Positions 2,479-17,912 of a DNA stretch of 17,912 bases are shown here, in pieces. Each line of letters starts with the position of its first letter. The first letter of the stretch is position 1. The position numbers and the translations under genes are program-made. Under the pieces are notes generated by a model that saw only the letters and a program-made list of their open reading frames with translations, was not told the origin of the DNA and made no database searches. Source of the DNA: Candidatus Scatomorpha stercorigallinarum (lineage in GTDB: Bacteria; Bacillota_A; Clostridia; Oscillospirales; Oscillospiraceae); the NCBI GenBank assembly GCA_018713375.1, contig DVOV01000061.1, forward strand, positions 1 to 17,912, read 5' to 3'.

Positions 2479-4201
2479 GCCGAAGGAGCTCATCCAGCCC
2501 ACCGTCTGGCTGTTCCTTTCGCAGGCGTGCAGTATGCTCCCGGCCATTTTGGCATACATGGCGATCTATACTCTGGGGCAGGCTTTTGTGCCGCCGTACA
2601 CATTGGATCTGCGGCGCCTTATCGTGCTTGCGGCGATCGCTCTGGGGTATATCCTGCTCCAATACGCGGTAGAGCTGGTCTCCTACTACTTCACCTATGG
2701 GCGCGCTTACAGCGATACGGCCAGAAAGCGCGTGGCATACATCCAAAAACTGCGCAGCCAGCCGCTGGGTTTCTTTTCGTCCAAGGAGTCGGGCGAATTG
2801 ATCAGTTCCTTTGCCGGCGATTTCGCAAACGTGGAATACGCGCTCTGCTACTGGCTGCCCTATCCCATTGGCGTGGGGGCGCTGCTGATGATCTCGATCG
2901 TATGGATCGGCGTTTATGACTGGCGCATGGGGATCGCCATGTTCGGGATGCTGCCGGTCTGCGCGGCGCTTATGTTTGTCATCGCCCGTATCAAGGAAAA
3001 ACACAGCCGGCAGGTCATGGCGGCGAAGTCCCGCGCGGCCACGCAGGTCAACGAATATCTCCACGGTATGAAAGACCTGAAGGCCTACCATCGCACGGGG
3101 GAGGGCTTTCATTCTCTGGAAACGGCCATGCGGAGATTGCGGGATGAGTCGCTAAAAGAAGAGGCGGTGGCGGGCAGCCTGTCCACGCTGTGCTCCTCTT
3201 TGGTAAAGTTCATCGTCCCCGTCACGGCTGCGGCCGGGCTTTATCTGCTGATCGGCGGCACGCTGTCTGTTCTGGACCTTGCGGGCTTTCTCGTTTTGGC
3301 GGCCAAGCTGGTGGACTCGGAGTTGATGGTCGTCGTCAGCATATCCGCGCTGCGCGGGATGAGGCCCTCCGGCGAGCGGTTGGACAAGGTCATGACGGCA
3401 GACGAGCCCCCCGGCACGGAAACGCTCGAAGAAGGCGCTTCTTATCAGTTTGAAAATGTGTCTTTTGGATATGGGGCAGCCGCAGATGTTGTAAAGGATG
3501 TCTCGTTCACTGCCCCGTCCGGTTCACTAACGGCTTTGGTGGGCCCCTCGGGCAGCGGGAAATCCACCCTGCTTCGCCTGATGGCGCGGTTTTGGGACTA
3601 TCGCTCCGGACACATCCGCATGGATGGCAGGGACATAAAAGATGTCAGGCCGGACAGCCTGCTTTCCCGCGTCTCCATGGTCATGCAGAGCGCCTATTTG
3701 TTCCGGGGGACCATCCGGGAAAACCTTTGCTTTGGCGATGACGGCATCACCGAGGAACAGATGATAAAGGCGTGCAGGCTGGCCCGCTGCCATGGTTTTA
3801 TCTCGGCGCTGCCTGAAGGGTACGACACGGTCGTCGGGGAAGGCGGGGCTACGCTCTCCGGCGGCGAGCGTCAGCGCATCTCGCTTGCCAGAGCATTTTT
3901 AAAAGATGCGCCGGTCCTCCTGCTTGACGAGCCGACCGCCTCCCTGGATGCAGATAATGAGGCAATGGTGCAGAAGGCATTGGACGGCATTTCCAAAGAG
4001 CGCACGGTCGTCATGATCGCGCACCGGTTAAAGACTGTGCGCAATGCAGAGCAGATCATCGTATTGCAGGATGGAAAGGTAGTACAGAAAGGCACCCATG
4101 ACCAACTTGCCGGGCAAGAAGGGCTCTACGCCCGGCTGTGGGCGCTGCAGAGCCAGGCCGGGGGCTACACATTCAAACGATCCGAGGAGGTTTTTAAATG
4201 A
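2444..4201 (+). CDS. ABC half-transporter (membrane + ATPase), YbtP/YbtQ-like, second of pair
   Basis: 585 residues with the same architecture as its neighbour: six-helix membrane domain (about 15-310), then an ATPase with Walker A GPSGSGKST at 367-375, signature LSGGERQR at 471-478 and Walker B VLLLDEP at 491-497. The D-loop TASLDADNE is canonical, so the two partners have different D-loops, as in asymmetric heterodimers. The start is set by AAAGGAGG a few bases before the ATG at 2444. The reading frame overlaps the previous gene by 35 bases and the next by 4 (ATGA), indicating translational coupling and fixed stoichiometry. Family membership is sure; the transported molecule is inferred from context to be a metallophore or similar small ligand. 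Confidence 0.88.
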   Translation: MFQMVRQFTFHKPKELIQPTVWLFLSQACSMLPAILAYMAIYTLGQAFVPPYTLDLRRLIVLAAIALGYILLQYAVELVSYYFTYGRAYSDTARKRVAYIQKLRSQPLGFFSSKESGELISSFAGDFANVEYALCYWLPYPIGVGALLMISIVWIGVYDWRMGIAMFGMLPVCAALMFVIARIKEKHSRQVMAAKSRAATQVNEYLHGMKDLKAYHRTGEGFHSLETAMRRLRDESLKEEAVAGSLSTLCSSLVKFIVPVTAAAGLYLLIGGTLSVLDLAGFLVLAAKLVDSELMVVVSISALRGMRPSGERLDKVMTADEPPGTETLEEGASYQFENVSFGYGAAADVVKDVSFTAPSGSLTALVGPSGSGKSTLLRLMARFWDYRSGHIRMDGRDIKDVRPDSLLSRVSMVMQSAYLFRGTIRENLCFGDDGITEEQMIKACRLARCHGFISALPEGYDTVVGEGGATLSGGERQRISLARAFLKDAPVLLLDEPTASLDADNEAMVQKALDGISKERTVVMIAHRLKTVRNAEQIIVLQDGKVVQKGTHDQLAGQEGLYARLWALQSQAGGYTFKRSEEVFK

Positions 4202-4806
4202 AAGGAAAAATGCTGAGCCTGAAGGAATTCGTCATCGTTCTGCTGCTGGCCTGCGTGGAAGCGGCTATCGCGCTCGTGGCCACCGTACCGTTTGCTGCAA
4301 ATATGCAGCTCGTCTATTTCCTCGCGCCCGGCCTTGCGGGCCTGATAAACGGCATTGTCTACGTACTGCTTGTAAAGAAGTGCCCGAAGATCGGCACGCA
4401 GTTCATCGTCCCCATGGTCTACGGCCTGTATTTCCTTTTTACGGGCAGCGTCTATGTATTCGTGTTTTTCGCGATCCTGGCGGTCGCAAACGAACTCATC
4501 ATGCTGGGCGGCGGCTACCAGAGCAGGATACGTCCCGCCATCCCTCATGCGCTTACCTGGATGCTGAATGCGATGGGCAGCACGCTGACCATGCTGCTGT
4601 TCCGCGACAGTTTGGTGCAGAGCTATGTGGCCATGGGGATGGACGCCGCCGGTGCGGACGCGGCCATCGCGTCTCTGGAAGGGTTCTGGCTGGCTCCGCA
4701 GAACATCGCCGCCGCCCTGGCTGCCGCCGCGGCTTTGTCCATTGCCGGATATGCGCTGGGCATGAAAATGCTGGGCAAGCACTTCAAGCCCGCCGGGGTT
4801 GCGTAA
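4198..4806 (+). CDS. ECF transporter substrate-binding (S) component, MptD/Trep_Strep-type
   Basis: 202 residues and strongly hydrophobic, with about five or six membrane spans (roughly 10-32, 36-60, 68-85, 86-104, 118-135, 168-190). It lacks any ATPase motif. The sequence fits the MptD-family putative ECF S component (TIGR02185), which gives the ECF module its ligand specificity. The position directly before the T and A subunits supports this. GAGGAGG at 4184-4190 sets the start, and the ATG overlaps the stop of the preceding gene. The ligand is unknown: members are named only provisionally, and other S components bind vitamins or metal ions. Linkage to YbtPQ-like genes suggests a role in the same uptake process. 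Confidence 0.82.
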   Translation: MKGKMLSLKEFVIVLLLACVEAAIALVATVPFAANMQLVYFLAPGLAGLINGIVYVLLVKKCPKIGTQFIVPMVYGLYFLFTGSVYVFVFFAILAVANELIMLGGGYQSRIRPAIPHALTWMLNAMGSTLTMLLFRDSLVQSYVAMGMDAAGADAAIASLEGFWLAPQNIAAALAAAAALSIAGYALGMKMLGKHFKPAGVA

Positions 4807-5537
4807 TGGAAAAACGAAAGCAGGGCCATTTCCGGCCCGACCCCCGCACATGGCTGCTGCTCTGCCTGCTGGGGACCGCCTCGGTCCTGCTGGTACGCTC
4901 TGAGATCGGAGGGGCCTGCCTGTTCCTGGGGTGCCTGCTGGTCCATCTTCTGTCGGGAAACGGGAACAGGCTCCTTCCTTGCATGCTGTATTACCTTGTT
5001 TTTTATGCCGTCGGCTGGGCGGGCGTACGGCTGCTGGATGGCGGCGTGGCCTTTTCCGTAAGCTCCATGCTCTCCAGCATGGGTATCGTCGGGAGGAAAA
5101 CACTGATCCCCTTGTCCTTCGCCGCCGCCCTTGCCGGAGAGCCGACCGGTTCTTTGATGGCGGCTTTGCAGGCCATGCGCTTTCCGAAAACGGTCGGGAT
5201 AGCGGCCTCGGTAGTCCTCCGCTTTTTTCCGACCATAGCCGGGGAATACCGGGCCATCCGCTCGTCCCAGCGCTTCCGGGGGATCGGGGTGGGCGTTATC
5301 CACACGCTCACCCATCTGCCTTCTACGGTGGAGTATATTTTGATACCGCTGATCCTGAGGACGGCAAGGGTGGCAGAGGAACTTTCCGCATCTATGACCG
5401 TGCGCGGCGTGCGCTTTTCCGGCGAGACCGTCAGTTACCGCCCCATTCATTTCAGCTGGAAAGACGGCGCCATTTGCGTATCCATGGCGGCGATCGCCGG
5501 CGCGGTCTTCGCGCTGGAGAAAGGAGGGGCCCTGTGA
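4806..5537 (+). CDS. ECF transporter transmembrane (T) component, EcfT/CbiQ family
   Basis: 243 residues, beginning MEKRKQGHFR. The start ATG shares one base with the stop of the S-component gene (TAATG), so translation is coupled; an open frame extends further upstream but only as a shadow of the preceding gene. Hydrophobic spans occur near 16-31, 36-50, 57-77, 100-112 and 221-238. Two arginine-containing motifs typical of EcfT coupling helices are visible: SQRFRG at 154-159 and MTVRGVR at 197-203. In the family these dock onto the two ATPase domains and pass movement to the S component. Length is close to that of other EcfT proteins. Confidence 0.85.
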   Translation: MEKRKQGHFRPDPRTWLLLCLLGTASVLLVRSEIGGACLFLGCLLVHLLSGNGNRLLPCMLYYLVFYAVGWAGVRLLDGGVAFSVSSMLSSMGIVGRKTLIPLSFAAALAGEPTGSLMAALQAMRFPKTVGIAASVVLRFFPTIAGEYRAIRSSQRFRGIGVGVIHTLTHLPSTVEYILIPLILRTARVAEELSASMTVRGVRFSGETVSYRPIHFSWKDGAICVSMAAIAGAVFALEKGGAL

Positions 5538-6985
5538 TCGAACTGCAAAACATCTCCTTCTCCTATGCAAACAGCCGAGAGAACAGCGCGCTGCGCCGCA
5601 TCGATCTGACTGTAAAAAAGGGCGAGCTGGTGATCCTGGCCGGGAAAAGCGGCTGCGGAAAAACGACTTTGATAAGGGTCCTCAACGGGCTTTGTCCGCA
5701 GTTTTATCCGGGAGACCTTACAGGAAGCTATCTTCTGGATGGGCAGGACGCCCTTAAAATGACCATCCATCAGTTAGGTACGATGGTGGGCAGCGTATTC
5801 CAGGACCCGCGCAGCCAGTTTTTTGCCACCAACACGACCGACGAGATCGCACTGGGGATGGAGAACATCCCATTGGCGCGCCCGGTCATGCGGAAGCGGG
5901 TAGAGGCAGTATGCGCGCAGATGAACATCGGCCGGCTGCTCGACCGCCGGATATTCCATCTGTCCAGCGGGGAAAAGCAGCTTATCGCCCTTGCGTCCAT
6001 CTGCGCCATGGAGCCAAAGGTCATCGTCATGGATGAGCCTTCCGCGAACCTGGACAGCGACGCCATGGCGCGGCTGGGCGCGCTGCTCTACCGGCTGAAA
6101 GCAGCCGGGCATACCATTGTCCTGTCGGAACACCGTTTCCATTATGTGCGCGATTCCTTTGACCGGCTTATTTTTATGGAGGACGGCGCGATCTCCGCCA
6201 TCTACGGCCATGACGAGGCATTAAAGCTCCCTGAAAAACAGCTTACAGCCATGGGACTGCGCCCCTTCGACGCGCCGGCTTTTCATGTGGGCGGCGCTTT
6301 TCGGCCAAAGCCGGAGGATGCCCTGCAGGTTTCCGAGATATCCTGTATGCTGGACGGGCGGCAGATCCTGGAGGAGGTCTCTTTCTCGGCGGGAAGCGGA
6401 AAGGTCCTCGCCATTGCGGGGCCAAATGGCGCCGGGAAGTCTACATTATGCCGGGCGGTGACCGGGCTTTACCGGGCGATGGGAACGGTGCGGCTCGACG
6501 GGGAGTATCTGAAGCGTAAGCGGCGCACGGACCGCTCCTTTTTTGTGCAGCAGGACCCCGATCACCAGCTCTATGCCCCTACGGTCTTGGATGAGTTCTG
6601 GATAGGAAAAAGAAAAACGCCCGCCCTGGGGGCGGCCGCGTTGGCGAGGTCAAAAGAAATGGGCTTGGACGCTTTTCAAGGCAGGCACCCGGCCTCGCTC
6701 TCCGGCGGCCAGAAGCAGCGGCTGCTTTTAGCGATCGCGGCGGCCAGCAACAGGAGCCTTCTTGTATTCGATGAGCCCACAAGCGGGTCGGATGGCTACC
6801 ACATGCATCTGACAGCGCAGCTTTTCAAACGGCTTGCAGCCGAAGGGAAGTGCATCCTGCTGATCACACACGACATGGACCTGATCGCAAAAGCCGCCGA
6901 CAGTGTGCTCTACCTCGAACAGGGAAAAGTGCGCTACCACCGCAATGTCCTGCGGCAGGCACAGGCGGTATCCGCAGGATATTAG
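5534..6985 (+). CDS. ECF transporter ATPase with two fused ABC domains (A-A')
   Basis: 483 residues from a GTG start that overlaps the preceding stop (GTGA), with AAGGAGG at 5521-5527. Domain 1 has Walker A GKSGCGKTT at 37-45, Q-loop near 90, signature LSSGEKQ at 143-149, Walker B IVMDEP at 164-169 and switch His 200. Domain 2 has GPNGAGKST at 296-304, LSGGQKQR at 389-396, LLVFDEP at 409-415 and switch His 446. Both sites look catalytically complete. Many ECF systems use two separate ATPases (EcfA and EcfA'); here they are joined in one chain. It powers the S/T module encoded just upstream and is the last gene of the operon. Confidence 0.88.
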   Translation: MIELQNISFSYANSRENSALRRIDLTVKKGELVILAGKSGCGKTTLIRVLNGLCPQFYPGDLTGSYLLDGQDALKMTIHQLGTMVGSVFQDPRSQFFATNTTDEIALGMENIPLARPVMRKRVEAVCAQMNIGRLLDRRIFHLSSGEKQLIALASICAMEPKVIVMDEPSANLDSDAMARLGALLYRLKAAGHTIVLSEHRFHYVRDSFDRLIFMEDGAISAIYGHDEALKLPEKQLTAMGLRPFDAPAFHVGGAFRPKPEDALQVSEISCMLDGRQILEEVSFSAGSGKVLAIAGPNGAGKSTLCRAVTGLYRAMGTVRLDGEYLKRKRRTDRSFFVQQDPDHQLYAPTVLDEFWIGKRKTPALGAAALARSKEMGLDAFQGRHPASLSGGQKQRLLLAIAAASNRSLLVFDEPTSGSDGYHMHLTAQLFKRLAAEGKCILLITHDMDLIAKAADSVLYLEQGKVRYHRNVLRQAQAVSAGY

Positions 6986-7051
6986 TTCACCCATTTTTCG
7001 CCTGCGGCAAAAAATGACGCCATCCACTCCGTTACATCTGTCCCTCTTCTC

Positions 7052-7091
7052 AAAACCGGACCCGCTGCGCTGGGCTTCGGTTTTGTTTTTT
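7052..7091 (+). terminator. Terminator of the transporter operon
   Basis: The arms AAAACCGGACCC (7052-7063) and 7072-7084 pair with one bulged C and one G-T pair around an 8-base loop. They are followed by a T-rich tract GTTTTTT. The hairpin lies 66 bases after the last operon gene. Confidence 0.7.
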
Positions 7092-7144
7092 GCTGTGCTC
7101 ATATGCTTTGGGCCGGCGGACTCTTGCGCCGCGGGCGCAGGCAT

Positions 7145-7181
7145 AAAAAATCGTCGGAACAGAGTGAACTCTGTTCCGACG
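7145..7181 (-). terminator. Terminator of the tRNA-Leu gene
   Basis: A perfect 13-base-pair stem (7152-7164 with 7169-7181) around a 4-base loop, followed on the complement by ATTTTTT. It starts two bases past the tRNA CCA end, so it is a textbook intrinsic terminator for this transcript. Confidence 0.92.
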
Positions 7182-7182
7182 C

Positions 7183-7270
7183 TGGTGCGCGAGGCGGGAC
7201 TTGAACCCGCACGTGCGTAGTGCACACTAGAACCTGAATCTAGCGAGTCTGCCAATTCCACCACTCGCGC
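7183..7270 (-). tRNA. tRNA-Leu (anticodon CAG)
   Basis: On the complement an 88-base cloverleaf can be folded. The acceptor stem GCGCGAG pairs with CTCGCGC, followed by discriminator A and an encoded CCA. The anticodon stem CTAGA/TCTAG encloses the loop TTCAGGT, so the anticodon is CAG (reads CUG). A long variable arm (GTGC/GCAC) shows the class II type used by leucine. The T arm contains GGTTCAAGTCC. The 3' end points toward the transporter operon. Confidence 0.96.
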
Positions 7271-7299
7271 ATTTTTTCACATCTCGTGGATGCTCGATT

Positions 7300-7328
7300 A
7301 TAATAGCACCTCCGGCGCGTCTTGTCAA
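7300..7328 (-). promoter_or_regulatory. Promoter of tRNA-Leu
   Basis: On the complement, consensus TTGACA (7323-7328), 17 bases, then TATTAT (7300-7305), about 30 bases before the mature tRNA 5' end. Confidence 0.85.
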
Positions 7329-7344
7329 CATTTTTTTCGCGCAC

Positions 7345-7373
7345 TTGTCATATATTCATCCGTCTGCTATAAT
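7345..7373 (+). promoter_or_regulatory. Promoter of the DUF975 gene
   Basis: TTGTCA (7345-7350), 17 bases, TATAAT (7368-7373). Transcription would start near 7380, and AGGAGG follows just before the ATG at 7403. Confidence 0.85.
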
Positions 7374-7402
7374 CCAGTTATCAGTCCATCAGGAGGCAGG
7401 AA

Positions 7403-8128
7403 ATGTATCAACAAATAAACCGCGCCGCCCTCAAGGCCGACGCCCGCGCGGCCATGCGCGAGTCGCGCGCCAATCCATATGTCACGGCCCTGGTGCTCGT
7501 CGCGGTGAGCTATCTGCTAAATTATCTCTCCATGCGCGTCACGGGGCTATATGAGCTGATGCCGCAGATCTACGCCTACCTTGCGGGCGCGCATTTCACC
7601 GAGGAGGAGCTTTTGCAGCTCTATTACCGGCTGAACGAGCCGCGGCTGGGCGGGCAGCTCATCGACCTGCTCATCAGCGCCGTGCAGCTGATGCTGAACA
7701 CGGGCTTCATGCTCTTCTGCCTGCTGGCCGTGCGCCGCGCGGCCAACGCCCTGGGCAACCTGCTGGACAGTTTCGGCATGTTCTTCCGCATCCTCGGCCT
7801 CAGCATCGTCACCGGCGTGTTCACCTTCCTCTGGAGCCTGCTGCTCTTTGTCCCCGGCATCATCGCCGCTTACAGCTACCGGCAGGCCTATTACCTGCTG
7901 CTGGAGCACCCGGAGATGGGCATCATGGAGTGCATACGCGAGAGCAAGGCGCTCATGTACGGCCACAAGGCCGAGCTCTTCGTGCTCGACCTCTCCTTCC
8001 TCGGCTGGATGCTCCTGACGGCCATACCCTTCGTCTCGGTATACGTCCTGCCCTATACGGAGACGACCTACGCCGCCTATTACGTGGCCATCAGTACCCG
8101 GCACGGCGCATGGCAGCGGCAAATGTGA
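7403..8128 (+). CDS. DUF975-family integral membrane protein
   Basis: 241 residues with hydrophobic spans near 27-44, 92-112, 126-152 and 193-216. The stretch 151-202 (PGIIAAYSYRQAYYLL, later SKALMYGHKAELFVLDLSFLGW) is the hallmark of DUF975 proteins, which are common in Firmicutes and have no firmly known function. AGGAGG shortly before the ATG supports the start. It appears to be a single-gene unit with its own promoter and a hairpin terminator immediately after the stop. Family assignment is confident; no role can be read from the neighbours. Confidence 0.88.
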   Translation: MYQQINRAALKADARAAMRESRANPYVTALVLVAVSYLLNYLSMRVTGLYELMPQIYAYLAGAHFTEEELLQLYYRLNEPRLGGQLIDLLISAVQLMLNTGFMLFCLLAVRRAANALGNLLDSFGMFFRILGLSIVTGVFTFLWSLLLFVPGIIAAYSYRQAYYLLLEHPEMGIMECIRESKALMYGHKAELFVLDLSFLGWMLLTAIPFVSVYVLPYTETTYAAYYVAISTRHGAWQRQM

Positions 8129-9886: not shown

Positions 9887-11119
9887 TCAGCCCTCTGTTG
9901 CGGCGAGCTTCCCCCTCAGGCGGTGGACGGCGATGGCCAGCTGCAGGCGGCGGGCGGTGGCCGGGTCGTCGGTGTCCGCGCCCAGCAGGTCGCCGATCTT
10001 CTGCAGGCGGTATTTCATCGTGCTGCGGTCGATGAACATGCTGGCCGCCGCGCCGGAGAGGCGGTTGCCGAAGGCGAGGTATTTTTCCAGCGTGTCCAGG
10101 TACTCGGTGTGGTTGCGCTCGTCGTATTCGGCCAGCGCGCGCACCTCGGAGAGCTCCAGCACCGTGGGGCCCACCTGGGCCAGCGCGCCGGCGAGCATCA
10201 GCTCCTGATAACTGTCGCGGGCCGTGCGCATGCGCCCCGAGCCGGGCAGCGCGGCCAGCGTCAGCGCACCCATGGCCTGCCGGCGGTAGCCGCCGCGCTC
10301 GTTGAGGTCCGAAAAGCGGTCGGATACGCCGCAGCGCAGGGCGCGCCCCTCCGTCAGGCAGCGGAGCTTGTCCTGCAGTATGGGCGTCTCCCCCTCCGGC
10401 ACCGAGCAGCAGAGCGCGAGCAGCCGCCCGTCGCTGACGAGGTGGAAGCTGTGCGGCAGCAGGCGCGAAAGGCTCTGCTCGGCTTCGTGCAGCGCGGAGG
10501 CGTCGCGGCCGCCCTCCAGCGCCGCGAACACATAGCCGCCCCGGAGCGAGCCGCCGCCTTCGCCGTCCAGCCGCAGGTCGTAAAGGTTGCCGAAAACGCT
10601 GCGGGAGAGGTCGCCGTCCCCCAGCAGCAGCTCGCGCGCCACGCCGGACTCCAGGTAGCTGGCCTTGTATCCGCCCGGCTCCCAGTCCGGGACGCGGTCG
10701 TAGTAGTCATAGAGCTGCGTCAGGCGCTCGAGCGTGCGCTCCAGCACGCCCTGCGGCAGCCCCGGCGGGGCCGCAACGCCCAGTATGTGCCGCGGCTCGC
10801 CGCCGGCGGGCAGCAGGCGGCAGAGCACGGGGCCGTCCCCCGCCTCGCCGGGCAGGAACGCGGCCGCGCGGCCGCGGAAAAGGTCCCTGGCCCGCTCGTC
10901 CCGGCGCTCAAGCAGGGCGCGCAGCGCCGACCGGAGCGCCTCCTGCCCCTCCCCGGCCGCGGGGACGCTCATCGTCTCCAATCCGCCCGTGTCCAATATG
11001 ACCGTGGACATGCCGGTGAGGGAAAAGAGGCCCTCCAGCGTCTCGCGCAGCTCCAGGCCATCCGTCAGCGCGCCGAGCAGCAGCTCGTCCAGCCTGGCGG
11101 AAAGATCTTTTTCAGGCAT
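9887..11119 (-). CDS. PucR-type transcriptional regulator (second gene of tandem pair)
   Basis: 410 residues from an ATG at 11119, preceded on the complement by GAGGAGGGG. The C-terminus (about 356-376, SMFIDRSTMKYRLQKIGDLLG) is the PucR/CdaR-type helix-turn-helix: residues that select a half-site followed by the RxxTxxYRLxKI core. The rest has no helix-turn-helix and is presumably a ligand-sensing region and a degenerate GGDEF-like middle domain. The ATG lies inside the end of the upstream regulator gene (8-base overlap), so the two are co-translated. This family typically controls catabolic genes in response to the substrate. Here the natural target is the divergent dehydrogenase operon at 12634. 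Effector unknown. Confidence 0.8.
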   Translation of the reverse strand: MPEKDLSARLDELLLGALTDGLELRETLEGLFSLTGMSTVILDTGGLETMSVPAAGEGQEALRSALRALLERRDERARDLFRGRAAAFLPGEAGDGPVLCRLLPAGGEPRHILGVAAPPGLPQGVLERTLERLTQLYDYYDRVPDWEPGGYKASYLESGVARELLLGDGDLSRSVFGNLYDLRLDGEGGGSLRGGYVFAALEGGRDASALHEAEQSLSRLLPHSFHLVSDGRLLALCCSVPEGETPILQDKLRCLTEGRALRCGVSDRFSDLNERGGYRRQAMGALTLAALPGSGRMRTARDSYQELMLAGALAQVGPTVLELSEVRALAEYDERNHTEYLDTLEKYLAFGNRLSGAAASMFIDRSTMKYRLQKIGDLLGADTDDPATARRLQLAIAVHRLRGKLAATEG

Positions 11120-12302
11120 TGGCGCCCCTCCTCTCCGCGTCGGACAGCTCCGCCAGTTCCAGCCCCAGCTGCAGCGCCGACGCCGTCTCCGCGTCCGAAA
11201 GGTCGGCATGCAGCAGCTCCTCCACCTTGCGGATGCGGTTGATGACCGTATTGCGGTGCAGGCCCTGGGCCTCCGCCACGGCGGCGGGGCGGCGGAAAAG
11301 CTGCAAATAGAGCCGCAGCGTTTGCAGGTATTCGCCGTCCAGCCCCGCCAGCGCTTCCAGCGGGGACGAGCGCGAAGCGGCCGCGCCATAGCGCCCCAGG
11401 GCGCAGCGGCCGACGATGGCGGCGTAGCTGCCGCTGAACGTGCTCACCGGCCCGCCGCCCCCGGCCGAGAGGGCCAGCAGCGCCTGCGCGCGGCGCTCGG
11501 AAGTCTCTTCCAGCGAATCGAATATGTCGCTGGTGCCGGCGCGCACCTCGCACAGGCGGGCGACGGACTCCAGCCGCTCCAGCGCGCGCCCCCGTTCGCC
11601 GGCGCTGAGGCCGCTCTGCAATATGTAGAGCCGCTCCTCGCCCGCGAGGCAGCCGACAGCGCCGCTTCCCCCCTGGCAGAGGCGCCCGCGCAGGTATTCC
11701 AGCGTGCTCACCCCGCGCCCTTCCGCCGAGACGATGACGAAGGCGTAAGGCGGCTGATGCAGCGCGCCGGAGAGGGCCGCGAGCGTCTCCGGGCCGTATT
11801 CGTTGCGGATCAGCAGCCGCTCCACGGCGCCACCTCGCCCGTCGCGGCTGCGGTCGAGTATCAGCCGTGCGGCGGCGCGGGCGATGAGGTCGTTGGCGCG
11901 CAGGGCGTCCTCCCGGCGGCAGTCCTCGATCATGATGCCGCAGTAGGCCGCCAGCCGCCCGTCGGCCATCACCGGCCCGCAGGCCTGCGGATAGCCCTCG
12001 CAGGTGCCGGAATCGAACAGCTGAGAGCGCCCGTGCTCGTACATTTTTTCCTGGTACTCCAGATAGTTATAGCCGATGATGGCGCTCTCGGCGGCGTTGC
12101 CGCGCTCGGCCATGTCCTCCCAGTGGCTGTAATAAAACGGCCGCGGAAAGGCGTAGGCCAGCACGTGGAACGTGGTGTCGAAGCACACCAGCGGCAGTTT
12201 GATACATTCGTACACCCGGTCGAAGAGCTCCTGAAGGCTACCGCCGCTGAGGATGGCGTCCAGCAGCACGCTCTCCAACCGCTCGTGGTCGATGCTTTTC
12301 AC
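11112..12302 (-). CDS. PucR-type transcriptional regulator (first gene of tandem pair)
   Basis: 396 residues from a GTG at 12302, with AAGGAGG about 8 bases before it on the complement. The C-terminal helix-turn-helix (about 340-364, AEAQGLHRNTVINRIRKVEELL) is the PucR type, where HRNTVxxRIxKI is the recognition core. The N-terminal 150 residues look like a sensor domain and contain several Cys in SGTCEGYPQACG and YCGIMIEDC, which might bind a ligand or sense redox state. It is similar in layout to its downstream partner but clearly diverged, so the pair looks like an old duplication that may act as a heterodimer. Its promoter fires away from the dehydrogenase operon. Confidence 0.82.
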   Translation of the reverse strand: MKSIDHERLESVLLDAILSGGSLQELFDRVYECIKLPLVCFDTTFHVLAYAFPRPFYYSHWEDMAERGNAAESAIIGYNYLEYQEKMYEHGRSQLFDSGTCEGYPQACGPVMADGRLAAYCGIMIEDCRREDALRANDLIARAAARLILDRSRDGRGGAVERLLIRNEYGPETLAALSGALHQPPYAFVIVSAEGRGVSTLEYLRGRLCQGGSGAVGCLAGEERLYILQSGLSAGERGRALERLESVARLCEVRAGTSDIFDSLEETSERRAQALLALSAGGGGPVSTFSGSYAAIVGRCALGRYGAAASRSSPLEALAGLDGEYLQTLRLYLQLFRRPAAVAEAQGLHRNTVINRIRKVEELLHADLSDAETASALQLGLELAELSDAERRGANA

Positions 12303-12348
12303 GTCCCTCGCCTCCTTCTTACGACAGCGTTTTCACAATTTCCCTACT

Positions 12349-12377
12349 ATAATATATAAAGAACACGTCCATGTCAA
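12349..12377 (-). promoter_or_regulatory. Promoter of the tandem regulator operon
   Basis: On the complement, consensus TTGACA (12372-12377), 17 bases, TATTAT (12349-12354). This near-consensus promoter should give steady expression of both regulators. The leader is about 40 bases. Confidence 0.85.
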
Positions 12378-12402
12378 CCGGTGCCCCCGTCAGAATCAAC
12401 AT

Positions 12403-12445
12403 ATCCGCTGTGCAATGCGAGGAATCCGCGGCGGGGAGAATCCGC
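12403..12445. repeat. Three direct ATCCGC copies in the divergent intergenic region
   Basis: ATCCGC occurs at 12403-12408, 12424-12429 and 12440-12445 (start-to-start 21 and 16 bases), the last two as GAATCCGC. They lie upstream of both divergent promoters. The rest of the 331-base gap (12303-12633) holds the regulator promoter, a candidate -10 and the leader of the dehydrogenase operon, and no gene. Regulatory meaning is a guess. Confidence 0.3.
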
Positions 12446-12555
12446 ATTTTTGATATTTACCCCAAAAAGCTGAAAGCCGCATATTTACTTGATTCCTGCC
12501 GCGCGCTGTGCGTTTTGCTGTAAACCGCCCTCCTGTTTCCGCGCCGCTGACAGTG

Positions 12556-12561
12556 TATAAT
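12556..12561 (+). promoter_or_regulatory. Candidate -10 box of the dehydrogenase operon
   Basis: TATAAT at 12556-12561 would start RNA near 12568, about 65 bases before the first gene. No good -35 hexamer lies 16-18 bases upstream (the region reads CTGTTTC). That fits a promoter needing an activator, for example one of the divergent PucR-type proteins. Confidence 0.5.
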
Positions 12562-12633
12562 GACGGGCGCTGTGTTAAAATGCAGTCAATCAAGCCGGGA
12601 GACCGGTGTTTTAAGAAAGGATGCTGAATTATC

Positions 12634-13419
12634 ATGGATTACGGCCTCAAGGACAAGGTAGTGCTCATCACCGGCTCCACCGGCGGCATCGGCCAGGCCC
12701 TGTGCCGGGCTTTCGCGGCCGAGGGCTGCAAGCTGGCCATCTCCTCCACCGCCCAGGAAAAGCTGGACGCCTTCGTCCCCACCCTGGACATCGCCCCCGA
12801 GAAGCTGGCGACCTTCATCTGCGACGTCACCAAGGAGGACGAGGTCAAGGCCTTTGTGGACGGAGCATACGCCGCGTTCGGCTCCATCGACGTGGTCATC
12901 CCCAACGCCGGCTATGAGGGCGAATACCAGCTCATCCAGGACTGCACCTACGAGTCCTACATGAAGGTCTACGGCGTAAACGTCTTCGGCGTTGTCTACA
13001 CCTGCAAATACGCCGCCAAGTACATGATCCCGCAGGGCAAGGGCGCGGTCGTGGTCATAGCCTCCAACGGCAGCTACACCACCGCGGCCGGCATGAGCGC
13101 CTACTGCTCCAGCAAGCACGCCGTCGCCGGCGTGGCGAAGAGCGTGGCCCTCGAGCTCGGCCCCCACGGCATCCACTGCAACTACATCTGCCCGGGCGGA
13201 GTTGAGACCCCGATGATCCACCGCATCGAGAAGAACACCTTCGGCGACACCAAGACCCACGAGGAGTGCGAGCAGATATTCGGCGCCGCCTATCTCGATA
13301 AGCGCTACTGCCGCGCGGACGAGGTCGCCAACCTGGCCCTCTATCTCGCCAGCGACGTGAGCAGCCACATCATGGGCAGCGGCATCCGCATGGACGCCGG
13401 CATGGACGCCCTCTGCTGA
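12634..13419 (+). CDS. Short-chain dehydrogenase/reductase (SDR), first of two
   Basis: 261 residues, a normal length for a classical SDR. The nucleotide-binding TGSTGGIG motif is at 13-20, NAG at 91-93, and the catalytic set Asn116, Ser144, Tyr157, Lys161 is complete (YCSSK). PGGVETPM at 187-194 follows as expected. The cofactor pocket after strand 2 reads AISSTAQEK and has neither a clear Asp for NAD nor the usual Arg for NADP, so preference is open. SDRs oxidise an alcohol to a ketone or the reverse. AAAGGA lies about 12 bases before the ATG. The next two genes follow closely with no visible terminator, so it heads a three-gene operon. The family is related to bile-acid and sugar dehydrogenases; substrate unknown. 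Confidence 0.88.
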   Translation: MDYGLKDKVVLITGSTGGIGQALCRAFAAEGCKLAISSTAQEKLDAFVPTLDIAPEKLATFICDVTKEDEVKAFVDGAYAAFGSIDVVIPNAGYEGEYQLIQDCTYESYMKVYGVNVFGVVYTCKYAAKYMIPQGKGAVVVIASNGSYTTAAGMSAYCSSKHAVAGVAKSVALELGPHGIHCNYICPGGVETPMIHRIEKNTFGDTKTHEECEQIFGAAYLDKRYCRADEVANLALYLASDVSSHIMGSGIRMDAGMDALC

Positions 13420-13481
13420 GCGTTTTTCCACATTTGTCAGTAAAGCCCTCAGATATCACTCAAAAACAGGAGGAAGAAAAA

Positions 13482-14237
13482 ATGTTCGATCTTCACGGTA
13501 GAGTAGCAGTCGTCACCGGCGCTTCCGCCGGCCTGGGCCGTCAGTTCGCCCTTGCTCTCGCCCGCCAGGGCGCCGACCTCGCCATCCTCGCCCGCCGCGA
13601 GTGGAAGCTGAACGAGGTCGCCGAAGAGATCCGCGCCGTCGGCGTGAAGTGCCTCGTCGTCCGCTGCGACGTCAGGGAGCCCGAGGACGTGGCCAACGCC
13701 GTCAAGGCCGTCATTGCCGAGTACGGCAAGGTCGATATTCTGGTCAACAACGCCGGCGGCGGCAAGAGCAAGCCCCTGGACGAGTTCCCCGAGGAGGACT
13801 GGATCGACACCGTCAACACCGACGTTTTCGGCGTCATGCGCTGCACCCGTGATTTCGGCCGCGAGATGCTGAAGGCCGGCTATGGCCGCATCATCAACAT
13901 CGCCTCCATCCTCGGCAAGGGCGGCCTGCCGGAGATCCCCATCAGCGACTACGCCGCCAGCAAGGGCGCCGTTATCAACTTCACCCACCAGATGGCCACC
14001 GAGTGGGCGCAGAAGGGCATCACCGTCAACTGCATCTGCCCGGGCTTCTTCCCCAGCGAGGCCAACAACCCCGAGGCCATGAAGGCCATGGACTACTTCA
14101 TCAAGGACCGCACTCCGATGGGCCGTCCCGGCCGCGACGGCGAACTCGACTCCACCGTCGTCTACCTCGCCGCCGACGAGAGCAGCTACGTCACCGGCAA
14201 CATCTGCACCTGCGACGGCGGCTGGACCGCCATCTGA
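13482..14237 (+). CDS. Short-chain dehydrogenase/reductase (SDR), second of two
   Basis: 251 residues from an ATG at 13482 with AGGAGG just before; an open frame 16 codons upstream lacks such a site. TGASAGLG is at 12-19, NNAG at 89-92, and Asn112, Ser142, Tyr157 and Lys161 are in place; the Ser-Tyr spacing is 15 rather than 13, from a two-residue insertion. ARR at 37-39, after strand 2, suggests NADP(H). It is well diverged from its SDR neighbour, so the two probably act on different hydroxyl/keto positions or different intermediates. General likeness is to gluconate-5-dehydrogenase or 3-oxoacyl-reductase type SDRs. It lies 62 bases after the first SDR and 29 before the ene-reductase. Confidence 0.88.
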   Translation: MFDLHGRVAVVTGASAGLGRQFALALARQGADLAILARREWKLNEVAEEIRAVGVKCLVVRCDVREPEDVANAVKAVIAEYGKVDILVNNAGGGKSKPLDEFPEEDWIDTVNTDVFGVMRCTRDFGREMLKAGYGRIINIASILGKGGLPEIPISDYAASKGAVINFTHQMATEWAQKGITVNCICPGFFPSEANNPEAMKAMDYFIKDRTPMGRPGRDGELDSTVVYLAADESSYVTGNICTCDGGWTAI

Positions 14238-14266
14238 GCGCAAAACAAAAGGGAGGAACACACCAA

Positions 14267-16228
14267 ATGTCCTGCTGCGATAAGAAATACGACTACAGCA
14301 TACTCTGGCGCCCCATCGACATCAACAAGTGCCGCATCCGCAACCGCATAAGCATGTCCGGTATGGGCACCTTCACCCCGACCACCGTCGACCAGGTTGA
14401 GACCGAGAGCGGCCTGCGCTACTACGAGGAGCGCGCCAAGGGCGGCATCGGCCTTATCCACACCGGCGCTTACTTCATAGACGAAAAGACAGCCCAGGGC
14501 GGCCGCACCCTCGACTTCTCCACCGACAAGAGCATCCCGAGCGGCACCCAGCTCACCGAGCGCGTGCACCGCTGGGGCGCTAAGATATTCGCCCAGCTCT
14601 CCTGCGGCACCGGCCGCAACGGCATGCCCCAGATCGGCGAGCGCGTGCCCATCTCCTCCAGCGAGAACCCGAGTTTCTACAACCCCGACATGATCTGCCG
14701 CGCCCTCACCGTGGACGAGATCCACGAGATGATGGAGCACTGGAAAGTCGCCGCGCAGAACGCCGTTTATATGGGCTTCGACGGCATCCAGATCCACGCC
14801 CACGCCGGCTACCTGATGGACCAGTTCATGAGCGAGATCTGGAACCACAGCACCGACAAGTACGGCGGGAGCTTTGAGAACCGCTGCCGCTTCACCATGG
14901 AGACCGTCGACGCCATCCGCTCCGTCGTCGGCCCCGACTTCCCGATAACCTACCGCATCAGCCTCGACCACCGCTTCCCCGGCGGGCGCACCATCGAGGA
15001 GAGCATGAAGATACTCGACGTGCTCGACAAGTGCGGCATCGACGCTTTCGACATCGACGCGGCCTGCTACGAGACGATGGACTACATCTTCCCCACCCGC
15101 TACACCGGCGAGGCCTGCATGGCCTATGTCTGCGAAGAGGCCCGCAAGCACATCACCCACCCCATCATCAACACCGGCAACCACAGCATGGAGAGCGCCG
15201 TTGCCCTGCTCGAGAGCGGCAACGCCGATATCGCCCAGTTCGGCCGCCAGTCCATCGCCGACCCGCAGTTCGCCAACAAGCTGCGTGAGGGCCGCCGCGA
15301 GGATGTCCGCCCCTGCATCGTCTGCAACGAGGAGTGCATCGGCCGCATCTTCGGCCGCCTGACCCAGCTGAGCTGCACGGTCAACCCCTCCGTCGGCTTT
15401 GAGACCGCCATGGAGGTCAAGCCGGTCAGCAAGCCCACCAACGTCGTCGTCATCGGCGGCGGCCCCGGCGGGCTCGAGGCCGCGCGCTGCGCCGCCGAGC
15501 GCGGCTGCTCCGTCACCCTGTACGAGAAGGGCGACAAGATCGGCGGCACCTTCCTCACCATCGCCACGGGCGACTTCAAGTGGCGCATCCCGCAGCTCAT
15601 CGAGTGGTACGGCGTGCAGCTCAAAAAGCTGGGCGTGAAGGTCGTCCTGAACGCCGAAATCAAGGCCGACGACCCCGTGCTCAAGAGCGCCGACGCCATT
15701 TTCGTGGCCACCGGCTCCAAGTCCGTCATGCCCAATATCCCCGGCATCGACAACAAGAAGGTCGTCGACGTGGTCGATATCCACAAGAACGGCATGCCCG
15801 AGGGCGAGCGCGTCGTCATCTGCGGCGGCGGCCTTTCCGCCTGCGACACCGCAATCGAGTACGGCGCCAAGGGCGGTAGGAAGTTCACCATCGTTGAGAT
15901 GCTGCCCCAGCTCGCCAGCGACGTCATGGTCGTCAACAAGATCAGTATCGACCGCCTGCTCAACGAGTACGGCGTGGAGCAGCTCACCAGCACCAAGGTC
16001 ATCGGCATCACCGACGAGGGCGTCGAGGTAGAGCACGAGGGCGAAAAGCGCGTCATCCCCGCCGATGTCATCGTCGCCGCCTTCGGCCGCGGCCGCAGCC
16101 TCGAGCTGGCCGACGCCGTCCAGAACGAGCATCCGACCAAGACCGTCATCATCGGCGACTGCATGAAGCCCGCCAAGGCCGGCAGCGCCATCCGCGAGGG
16201 CTTCTACGCGGCCATGTCCCTGAAGTAA
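14267..16228 (+). CDS. FMN/4Fe-4S/FAD ene-reductase, BaiCD/BaiH/2,4-dienoyl-CoA reductase type
   Basis: 653 residues with three parts. An old-yellow-enzyme barrel occupies about 10-345, including IHAHAGYLMDQF (176-187) and TDKYGGSFENR (196-206). A cluster motif follows, with Cys 350, 353, 357 and 370 (CxxCxxxC-x12-C). A flavin/NAD domain begins with VVIGGGPGG (394-402) and has a second dinucleotide motif CGGGLSACD (519-527) and the closing GDC (630-632). Family members pass hydride from NAD(P)H through FAD, the cluster and FMN to a conjugated C=C bond in ketosteroids, bile acids, isoflavones or dienoyl-CoA. GGGAGG before the ATG sets the start. Position after two SDRs suggests a multi-step reduction of one compound. 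The family is sure, the substrate is not. Confidence 0.9.
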   Translation: MSCCDKKYDYSILWRPIDINKCRIRNRISMSGMGTFTPTTVDQVETESGLRYYEERAKGGIGLIHTGAYFIDEKTAQGGRTLDFSTDKSIPSGTQLTERVHRWGAKIFAQLSCGTGRNGMPQIGERVPISSSENPSFYNPDMICRALTVDEIHEMMEHWKVAAQNAVYMGFDGIQIHAHAGYLMDQFMSEIWNHSTDKYGGSFENRCRFTMETVDAIRSVVGPDFPITYRISLDHRFPGGRTIEESMKILDVLDKCGIDAFDIDAACYETMDYIFPTRYTGEACMAYVCEEARKHITHPIINTGNHSMESAVALLESGNADIAQFGRQSIADPQFANKLREGRREDVRPCIVCNEECIGRIFGRLTQLSCTVNPSVGFETAMEVKPVSKPTNVVVIGGGPGGLEAARCAAERGCSVTLYEKGDKIGGTFLTIATGDFKWRIPQLIEWYGVQLKKLGVKVVLNAEIKADDPVLKSADAIFVATGSKSVMPNIPGIDNKKVVDVVDIHKNGMPEGERVVICGGGLSACDTAIEYGAKGGRKFTIVEMLPQLASDVMVVNKISIDRLLNEYGVEQLTSTKVIGITDEGVEVEHEGEKRVIPADVIVAAFGRGRSLELADAVQNEHPTKTVIIGDCMKPAKAGSAIREGFYAAMSLK

Positions 16229-16336
16229 GTCCAAAGCGCACAAACACACAACGCCCCCGCCATTACACGGGTGCTCATAAGAAAGTAATCCGGAAATTGC
16301 GATTATGGCATCTGTCAGACGGGATTGGTAAACGAG

Positions 16337-16380
16337 ATAACGGGTATTCGGTGTAAAAGCCGAGTACTCGTTATTTTTTT
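16337..16380 (+). terminator. Terminator after the dehydrogenase operon
   Basis: A 15-base-pair stem (16337-16351 with 16360-16374, two G-T pairs) around an 8-base loop, followed by a T-run to 16380. It lies 108 bases after the ene-reductase stop and is already inside the more AT-rich DNA, so it may belong to the incoming element rather than to the operon. Confidence 0.85.
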
Positions 16381-16421
16381 GTCCTTAACTGAAAGCAATA
16401 GATTTATTCACAGGTTTCGAG

Positions 16422-16438
16422 TATAATGAAACTATAAT
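16422..16438 (+). promoter_or_regulatory. Two candidate -10 boxes before the sigma-like gene
   Basis: TATAAT occurs at 16422-16427 and again at 16433-16438 in an AT-rich leader. Neither has a convincing -35 hexamer at 17 bases. The whole 338-base gap 16229-16566 holds the terminator, these boxes and the palindrome at 16459, and no gene that I can support. Confidence 0.4.
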
Positions 16439-16458
16439 CATCCTATCCCAACCATTCC

Positions 16459-16479
16459 GAGATTTTTTCAAAAAATCTC
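16459..16479. repeat. Perfect AT-rich palindrome in the leader of the sigma-like gene
   Basis: GAGATTTTTT and AAAAAATCTC flank a single C (10+1+10). An imperfect outer pair (CCAACCATTCC and GGAAACATTGG, 8 of 11 matching) surrounds it. No T-run follows on the + strand, so an operator or RNA hairpin is more likely than a terminator. Confidence 0.6.
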
Positions 16480-16566
16480 AAAAATTTTGGAAACATTGGA
16501 ACAATTCAGCCCTTCTTATGCCATATATAGTAGAGGGCTATTTCAAAACGATTGGAGGTGACGCTT

Positions 16567-17496
16567 TTGGACAGGCAGAAAGGCCCGACAGCTTTTATTG
16601 TAGTGCTGCCCGGCGAGATCATCGAGATACCGCAGGACAGCGACAAATCATGGTTGACCCTGTTTTACAGCCTACCGAGGGAACTTGCGGAAAAGTGGAA
16701 GTCTGCCTATGAACTGCCCCGCTGCCCCTACGAAGTTCTGAGGACGGACAAGTACGACAACATCGTATGTGACGATATGTTCAAGCTACTTGTGTGGGAC
16801 TGCTACGCATGGAGCGCATGGCAGTTCTTCCAAGTGAAAGACAGCAAGGGAAATTATCGTGACATACCCGGCAACTGGACGCAGTATGCAGGATATTTCC
16901 CTTTGTGGCGTTTGTCGTACAGCATTATCCCCTACATCCGAATGAAGTTTGAGCAGAACGGGCTCGGATTTCAAGAGCTTTACAGCATCCCGCAAGGTGT
17001 GGAAGTGCCGTGGCTGACCTATCAGCAATTCAGCAATCTGATCGGCAATGTCACCGATATGGTTGTTTCAGAACAGAACTGGCAGCCCATGATCGACGCT
17101 ATCTGGGAAAGCAGGACAGTCGAAGACTACGAAGCCACAAGCAGCACCGTCAAGACCGATTTCATGCGGAAGTGGCATCACAACCGTTCCGGTAAGCCGA
17201 TCTCTCTGGATGAAATGATGGAGAGTGAGGACGGGGACATTTTCGATGTGGCAGACCCACGGGGTGAGTTTGAGCAATCGGTTATTTCCGAAATGCAGGT
17301 AGCTACCTTTGCGGAGAGCACCATCACCGAGAAAGACCGGGAGATATTGAAGCTACGTATGGAGGGATACACCGAGCAGGAGATCGCAGACAAGGTTGGC
17401 TACAAGACAGCCAGTGCAGTCCATAAGCGGATCGCCAAGATTGCTGCCGCTTATGAGGACTTTGTAACAGCGGAATATCAGAAGTATTTAGGATAA
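16567..17496 (+). CDS. Sigma-70-like helix-turn-helix protein of a mobile element
   Basis: 309 residues from a TTG at 16567, chosen because GGAGGTGA (16554-16561) sits 5 bases before it; the TTG at 16552 would place this site inside the gene. The last 58 residues (252-309: TEKDREILKLRMEGYTEQEIADKVGYKTASAVHKRI) form a sigma region-4-like helix-turn-helix. Just before, SLDEMMESEDGDIFDVADPRGEFE resembles linkers of sigma factors. The N-terminal 200 residues are rich in Trp and Tyr and not recognised; no clear region 2 (-10 binding) is visible. Such proteins occur in conjugative and integrative elements of Firmicutes. Base composition is lower in GC than the operon to the left. It may be a transcription factor rather than a true sigma. 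Confidence 0.7.
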   Translation: MDRQKGPTAFIVVLPGEIIEIPQDSDKSWLTLFYSLPRELAEKWKSAYELPRCPYEVLRTDKYDNIVCDDMFKLLVWDCYAWSAWQFFQVKDSKGNYRDIPGNWTQYAGYFPLWRLSYSIIPYIRMKFEQNGLGFQELYSIPQGVEVPWLTYQQFSNLIGNVTDMVVSEQNWQPMIDAIWESRTVEDYEATSSTVKTDFMRKWHHNRSGKPISLDEMMESEDGDIFDVADPRGEFEQSVISEMQVATFAESTITEKDREILKLRMEGYTEQEIADKVGYKTASAVHKRIAKIAAAYEDFVTAEYQKYLG

Positions 17497-17514
17497 AGGG
17501 GGGATGGATCACAA

Positions 17515-17912
17515 ATGATAGAATCAAAAAACGATATATTGCCTTTGTTAAACGAATATATTGACACTCAACATGAGTGGATATATCAATTTTGGATGGG
17601 AGATGCAGAGGAATGGAGTGGCACGAGACAAGCTATATATTCCAATGGTGTTGTCCTCGGAAAATTCCGAGAAAGCGATATTCTTACTATTCAAACCCTT
17701 AAACTAGGAGTTTCTGACACGGCCTTGCATAACGAAATACAACAGTACTATGAACGCAAAATCAAAGCACAAAAGGAATTAGAGCATCCTGACATCATGC
17801 AACAAGGAATGTTAGAAATTTATGAAAAGCAATTTCGAGATTTCCTGATACTCCCGATTGATGAATGGATAGAGAATAATTGTACATGGATACAAAACGA
17901 TGTTGCCGATTT
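17515..17912 (+). CDS. Unrecognised protein, N-terminal part (cut by window end)
   Basis: An ATG at 17515 opens 132 codons with no stop up to the window edge, beginning MIESKNDILPLLNEYIDTQ. AAAGGGGGG (17496-17504) precedes it and the gap to the sigma-like gene is 18 bases, so the two are probably one operon. The protein is acidic and rich in Glu, Gln and Ile, with likely helices (EIQQYYERKIKAQKELEH), and no membrane span or known motif. It is among the most AT-rich coding sequence in the window, supporting foreign origin. No function can be offered. Confidence 0.65.
   Translation, partial: MIESKNDILPLLNEYIDTQHEWIYQFWMGDAEEWSGTRQAIYSNGVVLGKFRESDILTIQTLKLGVSDTALHNEIQQYYERKIKAQKELEHPDIMQQGMLEIYEKQFRDFLILPIDEWIENNCTWIQNDVAD

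Follow-up and report, generated by a model that had tools for sequence, protein, structure and literature searches.

A patchy, probably mobile cassette of two short-chain dehydrogenases and an ene-reductase behind divergent PucR-type regulators in Candidatus Scatomorpha stercorigallinarum

The window, the whole stretch of 17,912 nucleotides of Candidatus Scatomorpha stercorigallinarum that was analyzed (contig DVOV01000061.1), holds two regulator genes on the minus strand (9887-12302), which diverge from two short-chain dehydrogenase genes (SDR1 and SDR2) and the gene for an Old Yellow Enzyme (OYE)-type ene-reductase (ER) on the plus strand (12634-16228). This cassette is real, conserved, and patchy by species, and it is probably mobile. 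On balance we favor the reading that the window carries a resident copy of a laterally moving cassette, and that the cassette serves the inducible redox conversion of one imported small molecule, which probably derives from the diet. The cassette consists of known enzyme families, and literature searches, with most subscription papers outside their scope, gave no description of the gene combination or of the reductase type. The gene families, conservation, ER clade and mosaic structure described below were read from sequence, and the regulator fold is a predicted one.

SDR1 (12634-13419, plus strand, 261 aa), which we used as the cassette marker, and SDR2 (13482-14237, plus strand, 251 aa) are classical short-chain dehydrogenases: both match adh_short, and on reading they carry the motif pairs TGSTGGIG/YCSSK and TGASAGLG/YAASK, respectively. 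ER (14267-16228, plus strand, 653 aa) has the Pfam domains Oxidored_FMN and Pyr_redox_2 and the Fe-S motif CxxCxxxC...C, as expected of the OYE/Fe-S/FAD flavoenzyme superfamily. Its motif cysteines (C350, C353, C357, C370) are invariant in 17 aligned proteins, and the catalytic Tyr182 is conserved in the alignment as well. Going by the domains and the motif, its cofactors would be FMN, a 4Fe-4S cluster and FAD. The three genes are separated by short gaps, with likely starts at 13482 for SDR2, not at the mechanical 13434, and at 14267 for ER, not at 14003. The original prediction of two PucR-type regulators opposite two SDRs and an ene-reductase is thus borne out in its genes, domains and divergent layout.

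A scan of genome contigs with ER gave 16 loci, three of which (L014-L016) were dropped as matches to a short FAD-binding stretch only (E ~5e-4). L001-L011 have ER orthologues that are at least 61% identical, and L013 has a partial orthologue, 81% identical over 385 residues. SDR2 lies immediately 5′ of ER at all 11 testable loci. SDR1 belongs to the cluster at 9 of 9, a count from which L003 and L005 are missing because they end too early and in which the L002 copy is cut by the contig end; L013 has a 47% paralogue. Of 12 relatives, 10 have a gene of the major facilitator superfamily (MFS) after ER, truncated at the edge of the contig in L003 and L005. All 6 loci that could be tested have a divergent PucR-type regulator: L001 and L004 carry a pair, and L007, L009, L010 and L011 carry a single one. 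The cassette is found in other Oscillospiraceae, in the order SDR1-SDR2-ER-MFS, and in Lachnospiraceae-type genomes (Lactonifactor longoviformis, Schaedlerella), in the order SDR2-ER-MFS-SDR1. Gene content kept despite a changed order argues for a shared function, and the five-gene block is not a chance arrangement, as its genes are found clustered in other genera too, in either of two orders. The co-occurrence of regulators and operon in other genomes, the absence of which would have counted against the original prediction, was seen. At L012 there is an ER relative of 49% identity, with no SDR1 or SDR2 in the DNA examined there. L013 also shows an extended cassette: downstream of its MFS gene come a further ER paralogue (51%), a protein with DUF3237, and paralogues of SDR2 and SDR1 (L013:2569-6749).

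Across larger samples the cassette is patchy by species. At E<=1e-60, SDR1 was found in at least 3 of 394 genomes drawn from the G001 order, at least 1 of 392 drawn from the G004 order, and at least 1 of 398 in a phylum-level draw; these order- and phylum-level counts include the centre genome and are lower bounds, as at most six candidates per genome were scored. By genus, SDR1 at the same threshold occurs in 2 of 13 genomes (genus of G001) and 5 of 58 (genus of G005). Near-copies of ER are frequent in metagenomes: of 5,997 matches at E<=1e-30, the best 120 all have identities of 92% or more.

Comparison with the cassette of Candidatus Scatomorpha intestinavium (L004) shows the window to be a mosaic. 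Identity is 73.4% in the distal regulator gene (REG2), 73.5% in the proximal one (REG1), 62.2% in the gap between regulators and enzymes, and 90.7% in the first 140 bases of SDR1. It then rises to 98.5% in the rest of SDR1, 98.8% in SDR2 and 98.2% in ER. The steps are sharp and fall at ~12,780 and 16,264. To the left, 7140-8107 is 78% identical to the L004 genome, where it lies in the opposite orientation. Over its 1,962 bases ER has 35 mismatches with its L004 counterpart, of which 27 fall on third codon positions, so protein constraint alone cannot account for the contrast in identity. The enzyme block was probably gained by recombination from another Scatomorpha species and placed under resident regulators, to judge from this pattern.

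An assembly artifact is the alternative to weigh here. A metagenome chimera of two Scatomorpha strains and a phage contig would also give sharp identity steps at ~12,780 and 16,264, and the pairing of regulators and enzymes in the window would then not be real. Such a chimera would be in keeping with the absence of the window species from the 13 genomes of the genus that were searched, among which the best flank match is 78%. However, REG1 and REG2 also stand divergent to SDR1-SDR2-ER in L001 and L004, and the block itself is therefore independent of the window contig. We regard a chimera as unlikely, with a chance too large to neglect.

The 3′ end of the operon is where the window parts from its relatives. 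In L004, ER is followed by a hairpin and then by the MFS gene; the hairpin (11979-12020 of L004) has 11 pairs, a folding energy of -23.1 kcal/mol and a z of -4.15, and L001 has a hairpin of other sequence at the same ER-MFS position (z -4.35). The window matches L004 for 36 of 36 bases over the 5′ arm and part of the loop (16229-16264, plus strand), the last stretch that the two have in common, and diverges after 16264, within the hairpin loop. The window version of the hairpin is lost (-8.8 kcal/mol, z -1.5). Phage-like foreign DNA (16265-17912) occupies the MFS position of the relatives. It contains a sigma-like open reading frame (ORF; 16552-17496, plus strand) that is ~50% identical to a protein of IMG/VR contig L063, where the ORFs after it read by eye as a portal and a ClpP-like protease, and 55% identical to a protein of MT836816, 'Bacteriophage sp.' Its matches in Pfam and PHROGs are weak, some of them sigma-factor-like, and a plasmid search with the window tail gave no match. 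Either the operon is broken here by phage-like DNA, or the assembly of the contig is wrong. The original prediction that the locus lacks a transporter is true of the window and does not extend to the relatives, most of which have the MFS gene. At E<=1e-20 the MFS protein was found in 4 of 6 cassette genomes, always at the cassette, and in none of 6 genomes with a solo SDR1. Its only NCBIfam matches are to a lactate type (75.6 of 320 bits) and an oxalate/formate type (49.3 of 375).

The regulators are PucR/CdaR-type proteins of 410 aa (REG2, 9887-11119, minus strand) and 396 aa (REG1, 11112-12302, minus strand, GTG start), and their reading frames overlap by 8 bp. The PucR C-terminal domain HTH_30 is found in both (REG2, 56.3 bits, E 2.8e-15; REG1, 57.7 bits, E 9.9e-16; cut-off 27), and GGDEF_2 falls just below its cut-off of 24.5 (22.6 and 24.2 bits). 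We modeled REG1 with AlphaFold2 (pLDDT 87.8, pTM 0.78) from an alignment of 26 rows that includes three Lachnospiraceae-type regulators and one REG2. The best Foldseek match of the model is the Rv2242 C-terminal fragment (E 6.6e-7, TM by target 0.46). The N-terminal part of the model resembles the isolated CodY GAF domain, a ligand-binding fold (2gx5 and 2b18, TM by target 0.63-0.68; other CodY GAF chains, 0.50-0.59). The predicted REG1 fold is compatible with a GGDEF-like middle domain. In having a GAF-like N-terminal part, a possibly GGDEF-like middle and an HTH_30 end, the REG1 model is like known PucR/CdaR regulators (Rv2242; the CodY GAF domain); the difference is that two deeply diverged copies sit side by side here, tied to a redox cassette.

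A tree of 14 regulators resolves three clades, one each for REG1, REG2 and the Lachnospiraceae-type proteins (support 98/96 for REG1 and 100/100 for the other two), with REG2 in its own clade with its L004 and L001 partners; the program warns that the long branches of REG2 and of the Lachnospiraceae type may have been joined falsely. Since REG1 and REG2 lie in separate clades, more than 4 changes per column apart, a recent tandem duplication was rejected. The pair had been taken for tandem regulators; they are two deeply diverged lineages, and Lachnospiraceae-type loci carry only one. A REG1 protein search gave at least 49 relatives at E<=1e-8 (7,996 candidates scored). Two of the 49 come from contigs of the same sizes as those of SDR1 relatives (3,861 and 221,377 bases), with overlapping sources, which suggests that relatives of REG1 and SDR1 may be linked on these contigs too.

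Candidate operators lie in the divergent control region between REG1 and SDR1 (12303-12633, 331 bp). The direct repeats TGTGCAATGCG (12409) and TGTGCGTTTTG (12507) are 98 bp apart in the window, and TGTGC-type repeats are spaced by 97 bp in L004 and 100 bp in L001. Two plus-strand TGTGC in all three gap regions were obtained in 0 of 1000 shuffles, for a motif picked post hoc in three related sequences. An inverted-repeat search of the control regions gave no palindrome common to the loci.

ER falls outside every characterized family tested. Its best NCBIfam model is BaiCD (NF041087), at 396.8 bits against a cut-off of 825, followed by mycofactocin OYE 2 (TIGR03997, 391.8 against 793) and the long form of bilirubin reductase (NF045599, 387.9 against 750), a model that aligns to ER along almost all of its length. 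We built a tree of 38 proteins, in which ER groups with 13 relatives in a clade of their own (100/100). Another clade (100/100) is made up of six BaiCD-model hits, which come from three genomes that carry the cassette as well; E. coli FadH is outside both. We could thus place ER with respect to the BaiCD-model hits and FadH, as had been proposed, in a tree that is without daidzein reductase, bilirubin reductase and characterized BaiH; searches of 6 and of 146 genomes gave no bilirubin-reductase reference above the NF045599 cut-off. We also note that in Schaedlerella and an uncultured Lachnospiraceae (L034/L045 and L038/L061) a BaiCD-model reductase adjoins a second reductase of the same superfamily, in addition to the cassette.

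FadH, the 2,4-dienoyl-CoA reductase, has the same domain order and Fe-S cysteines as ER but is only 28% identical to it. In 2,4-dienoyl-CoA reductase, His252 has a role in a Tyr166/His252 pair. ER keeps the Tyr (Y182) and has a Tyr in the column of the His of FadH WHEAR. A place among characterized dienoyl-CoA reductases would have counted against the original prediction; ER does not share a clade with the E. coli enzyme.

In all 6 cassette genomes SDR1 has a single match at E<=1e-50, and it is 77-83% identical in L006-L011. The nearest subfamily model of SDR2 is gluconate 5-dehydrogenase PRK08213 (246 bits, cut-off 279). The SDR1 tree has good support for 5 of 18 branches and an unsettled bootstrap, and we relied on it for one point only, namely that in the G005 genus four solo copies group with the cassette copy (100/100). 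This nesting fits a loss of the other cassette genes or a reuse of SDR1.

How could these proteins act together? It is reasonable, from the gene families, to expect OH/C=O and C=C chemistry on one compound. The MFS protein, in the relatives that have it, would import this compound. One SDR would oxidize a hydroxyl to a ketone, or reduce a ketone, so that a C=C becomes conjugated or deconjugated; ER would reduce the C=C with NAD(P)H via FAD, the 4Fe-4S cluster and FMN; and the second SDR would set the final hydroxyl. We infer this chain of SDR oxidation, C=C reduction and SDR reduction from the enzyme families; the order and direction of the reactions, an acid substrate and the induction are inferred as well. 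In favor of this reading are the conserved gene content in two orders, the MFS gene found only at the cassette, the patchiness by species, the mosaic, the CodY-like GAF part of the REG1 model and a separate gene set on a Lactobacillus plantarum plasmid, described below. The divergent GAF/PucR-type regulators would sense the compound or its product and switch the operon from sites in 12303-12633. In the window, the enzyme genes would have come by recombination under resident regulators, with phage-like DNA now at the MFS position.

Several observations weigh against this reading. SDR1 occurs with no other cassette genes nearby in six genomes (4 of 5 of the G005 genus, G295 and G156; 13-20 kb read), so SDR1 need not act with ER. 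The L010 and L011 cassettes are without the MFS gene, which is found nowhere else in those two genomes. The window has no MFS gene either, and import in this window therefore remains a proposal. The MFS scores are far below the curated cut-offs, which makes an acid substrate weak. Finally, a chimeric assembly could produce the same mosaic and the same junction with phage-like DNA.

As for the substrate, there is a weak lead toward a plant acid, which may be hydroaromatic. In its specific form, a quinate/shikimate-type acid would be converted to an enone, ER would reduce the ring C=C, and an SDR would yield a dihydroxycyclohexane carboxylate, the whole serving as an electron sink on plant diets. 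The weak matches of the MFS protein to lactate and oxalate/formate transporter models agree with this. So does a second shikimate dehydrogenase paralogue that adjoins, divergently, a solo SDR1 in G836 of the G005 genus (L076:6454-8512), although the adjacency to SDR1 is seen in 1 of 12 genomes and such a paralogue stands beside the cassette in none of 6 cassette genomes. No dehydroquinate dehydratase was noticed near the cassette, though no search was aimed at one. Lactobacillus plantarum reduces quinate and shikimate. One of its plasmids (NZ_CP139652.1) carries a divergent regulator and, behind it, an SDR1 relative (58%), another SDR and a flavoprotein reductase. There, however, the flavoprotein is FAD_binding_2 plus FMN_bind, the flavocytochrome-c/fumarate-reductase type, the regulator is LysR, and no MFS gene stands beside the set in the PLSDB gene table, which is incomplete. 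The plasmid (L031) comes from sow faeces. Literature searches of the scope given above, on quinate/shikimate reduction by lactobacilli or gut bacteria, gave no paper on this reaction in L. plantarum. All in all, we think a hydroaromatic substrate of this type quite unlikely.

Lignan conversion is a doubtful candidate at best. The gene paper on the enterodiol lactonizing enzyme is reportedly that of Bess et al. 2020. The cassette, or part of it, would on this account be the enterodiol-oxidizing system of L. longoviformis, in which the two SDRs make a lactone like plant secoisolariciresinol dehydrogenase, the second-best PDB match of SDR1. That match reflects the SDR family at large, as 681 sequences pass the threshold. 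L. longoviformis is reported to convert enterodiol to enterolactone (PMC7317467, PMC9560768), and DSM 17459, the strain of L007, with the cassette at NZ_FQVI01000004.1:136155-142560, is named for the enterodiol lactonizing enzyme in a review table. Lactone formation requires no ene-reductase, however, and the cassette is also found in genera that are not known to us to carry out such a reaction.

The remaining reading is that the cassette acts on steroids or bile acids, as a module that pairs 3-keto/delta-4 reduction with two hydroxysteroid dehydrogenases. ER is like BaiCD (delta-4-3-ketosteroid 5-beta-reductase) in being an OYE-type Fe-S flavoenzyme of gut Clostridia with the active-site Tyr kept; the two differ in sequence, with HAHAGY-LMDQ in ER and HCAHNY-LPHS in three aligned BaiCD-model hits. 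According to Arp et al. 2025 (PMC12238238), N166 and S171 of the 5-beta-reductase mark positions that set enzymes for steroid hormones apart from those for bile acids, which have mostly Tyr/Ser and Glu. The BaiCD-model hits L032-L034 have Asn and Ser in these columns, and the BaiCD model therefore spans more than bile-acid enzymes. Although BaiCD is the best model of ER and 7-alpha-hydroxysteroid dehydrogenases are among the PDB matches of SDR2, this reading is highly improbable, as ER scores below half of the BaiCD cut-off, is in a clade apart from the six BaiCD-model hits even though three cassette genomes hold such genes elsewhere, and has Gly and Gln at the two positions, matching neither the steroid nor the bile-acid residues. 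The term BaiCD-type thus holds for the superfamily and not for the family. On clade, score and residues, both the steroid/bile-acid and the dienoyl-CoA readings of ER were rejected. The bai operon is marked by genes for a CoA ligase, a hydratase and a CoA transferase. None of these is within 9887-16228 and none was seen by eye in the L007 and L009-L011 cassettes, which agrees with the original prediction that this is not a bai operon. No support for steroid or flavonoid substrates emerged from this analysis.

Elsewhere in the window, 643-6985 holds two ABC exporter-type genes, followed by a Trep_Strep membrane protein and a CbiQ-type protein. The ORF after the latter has ABC ATPase motifs by eye, perhaps marking an ECF-type uptake system. 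The ~100 bases upstream of a tRNA-Leu gene (6994-7092) are a dispersed repeat: among the matches listed, at least 11 of the 13 congeneric genomes have copies of it.

Other clades of the gut ene-reductase superfamily convert bile acids and steroid hormones, and the ER clade is among those for which no substrate has been found. This ER is accompanied by two dehydrogenases, by regulators of its own and, in most cases, by a transporter. As a tentative proposal, to which we give a small chance, the cassette may be an undescribed gut pathway in which an imported plant hydroxy-acid, possibly hydroaromatic, is the electron sink for SDR1, SDR2 and ER under GAF/PucR control, with the enzyme block moving between species by recombination and each species keeping its own fast-evolving regulators. 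The presence of the cassette in culture-collection strains (L. longoviformis DSM 17459, Schaedlerella arabinosiphila DSM 106076) means that the substrate can be searched for by induction. The near-identical enzymes beside diverged resident regulators would be a testable example of enzyme genes that move while their switch stays behind.

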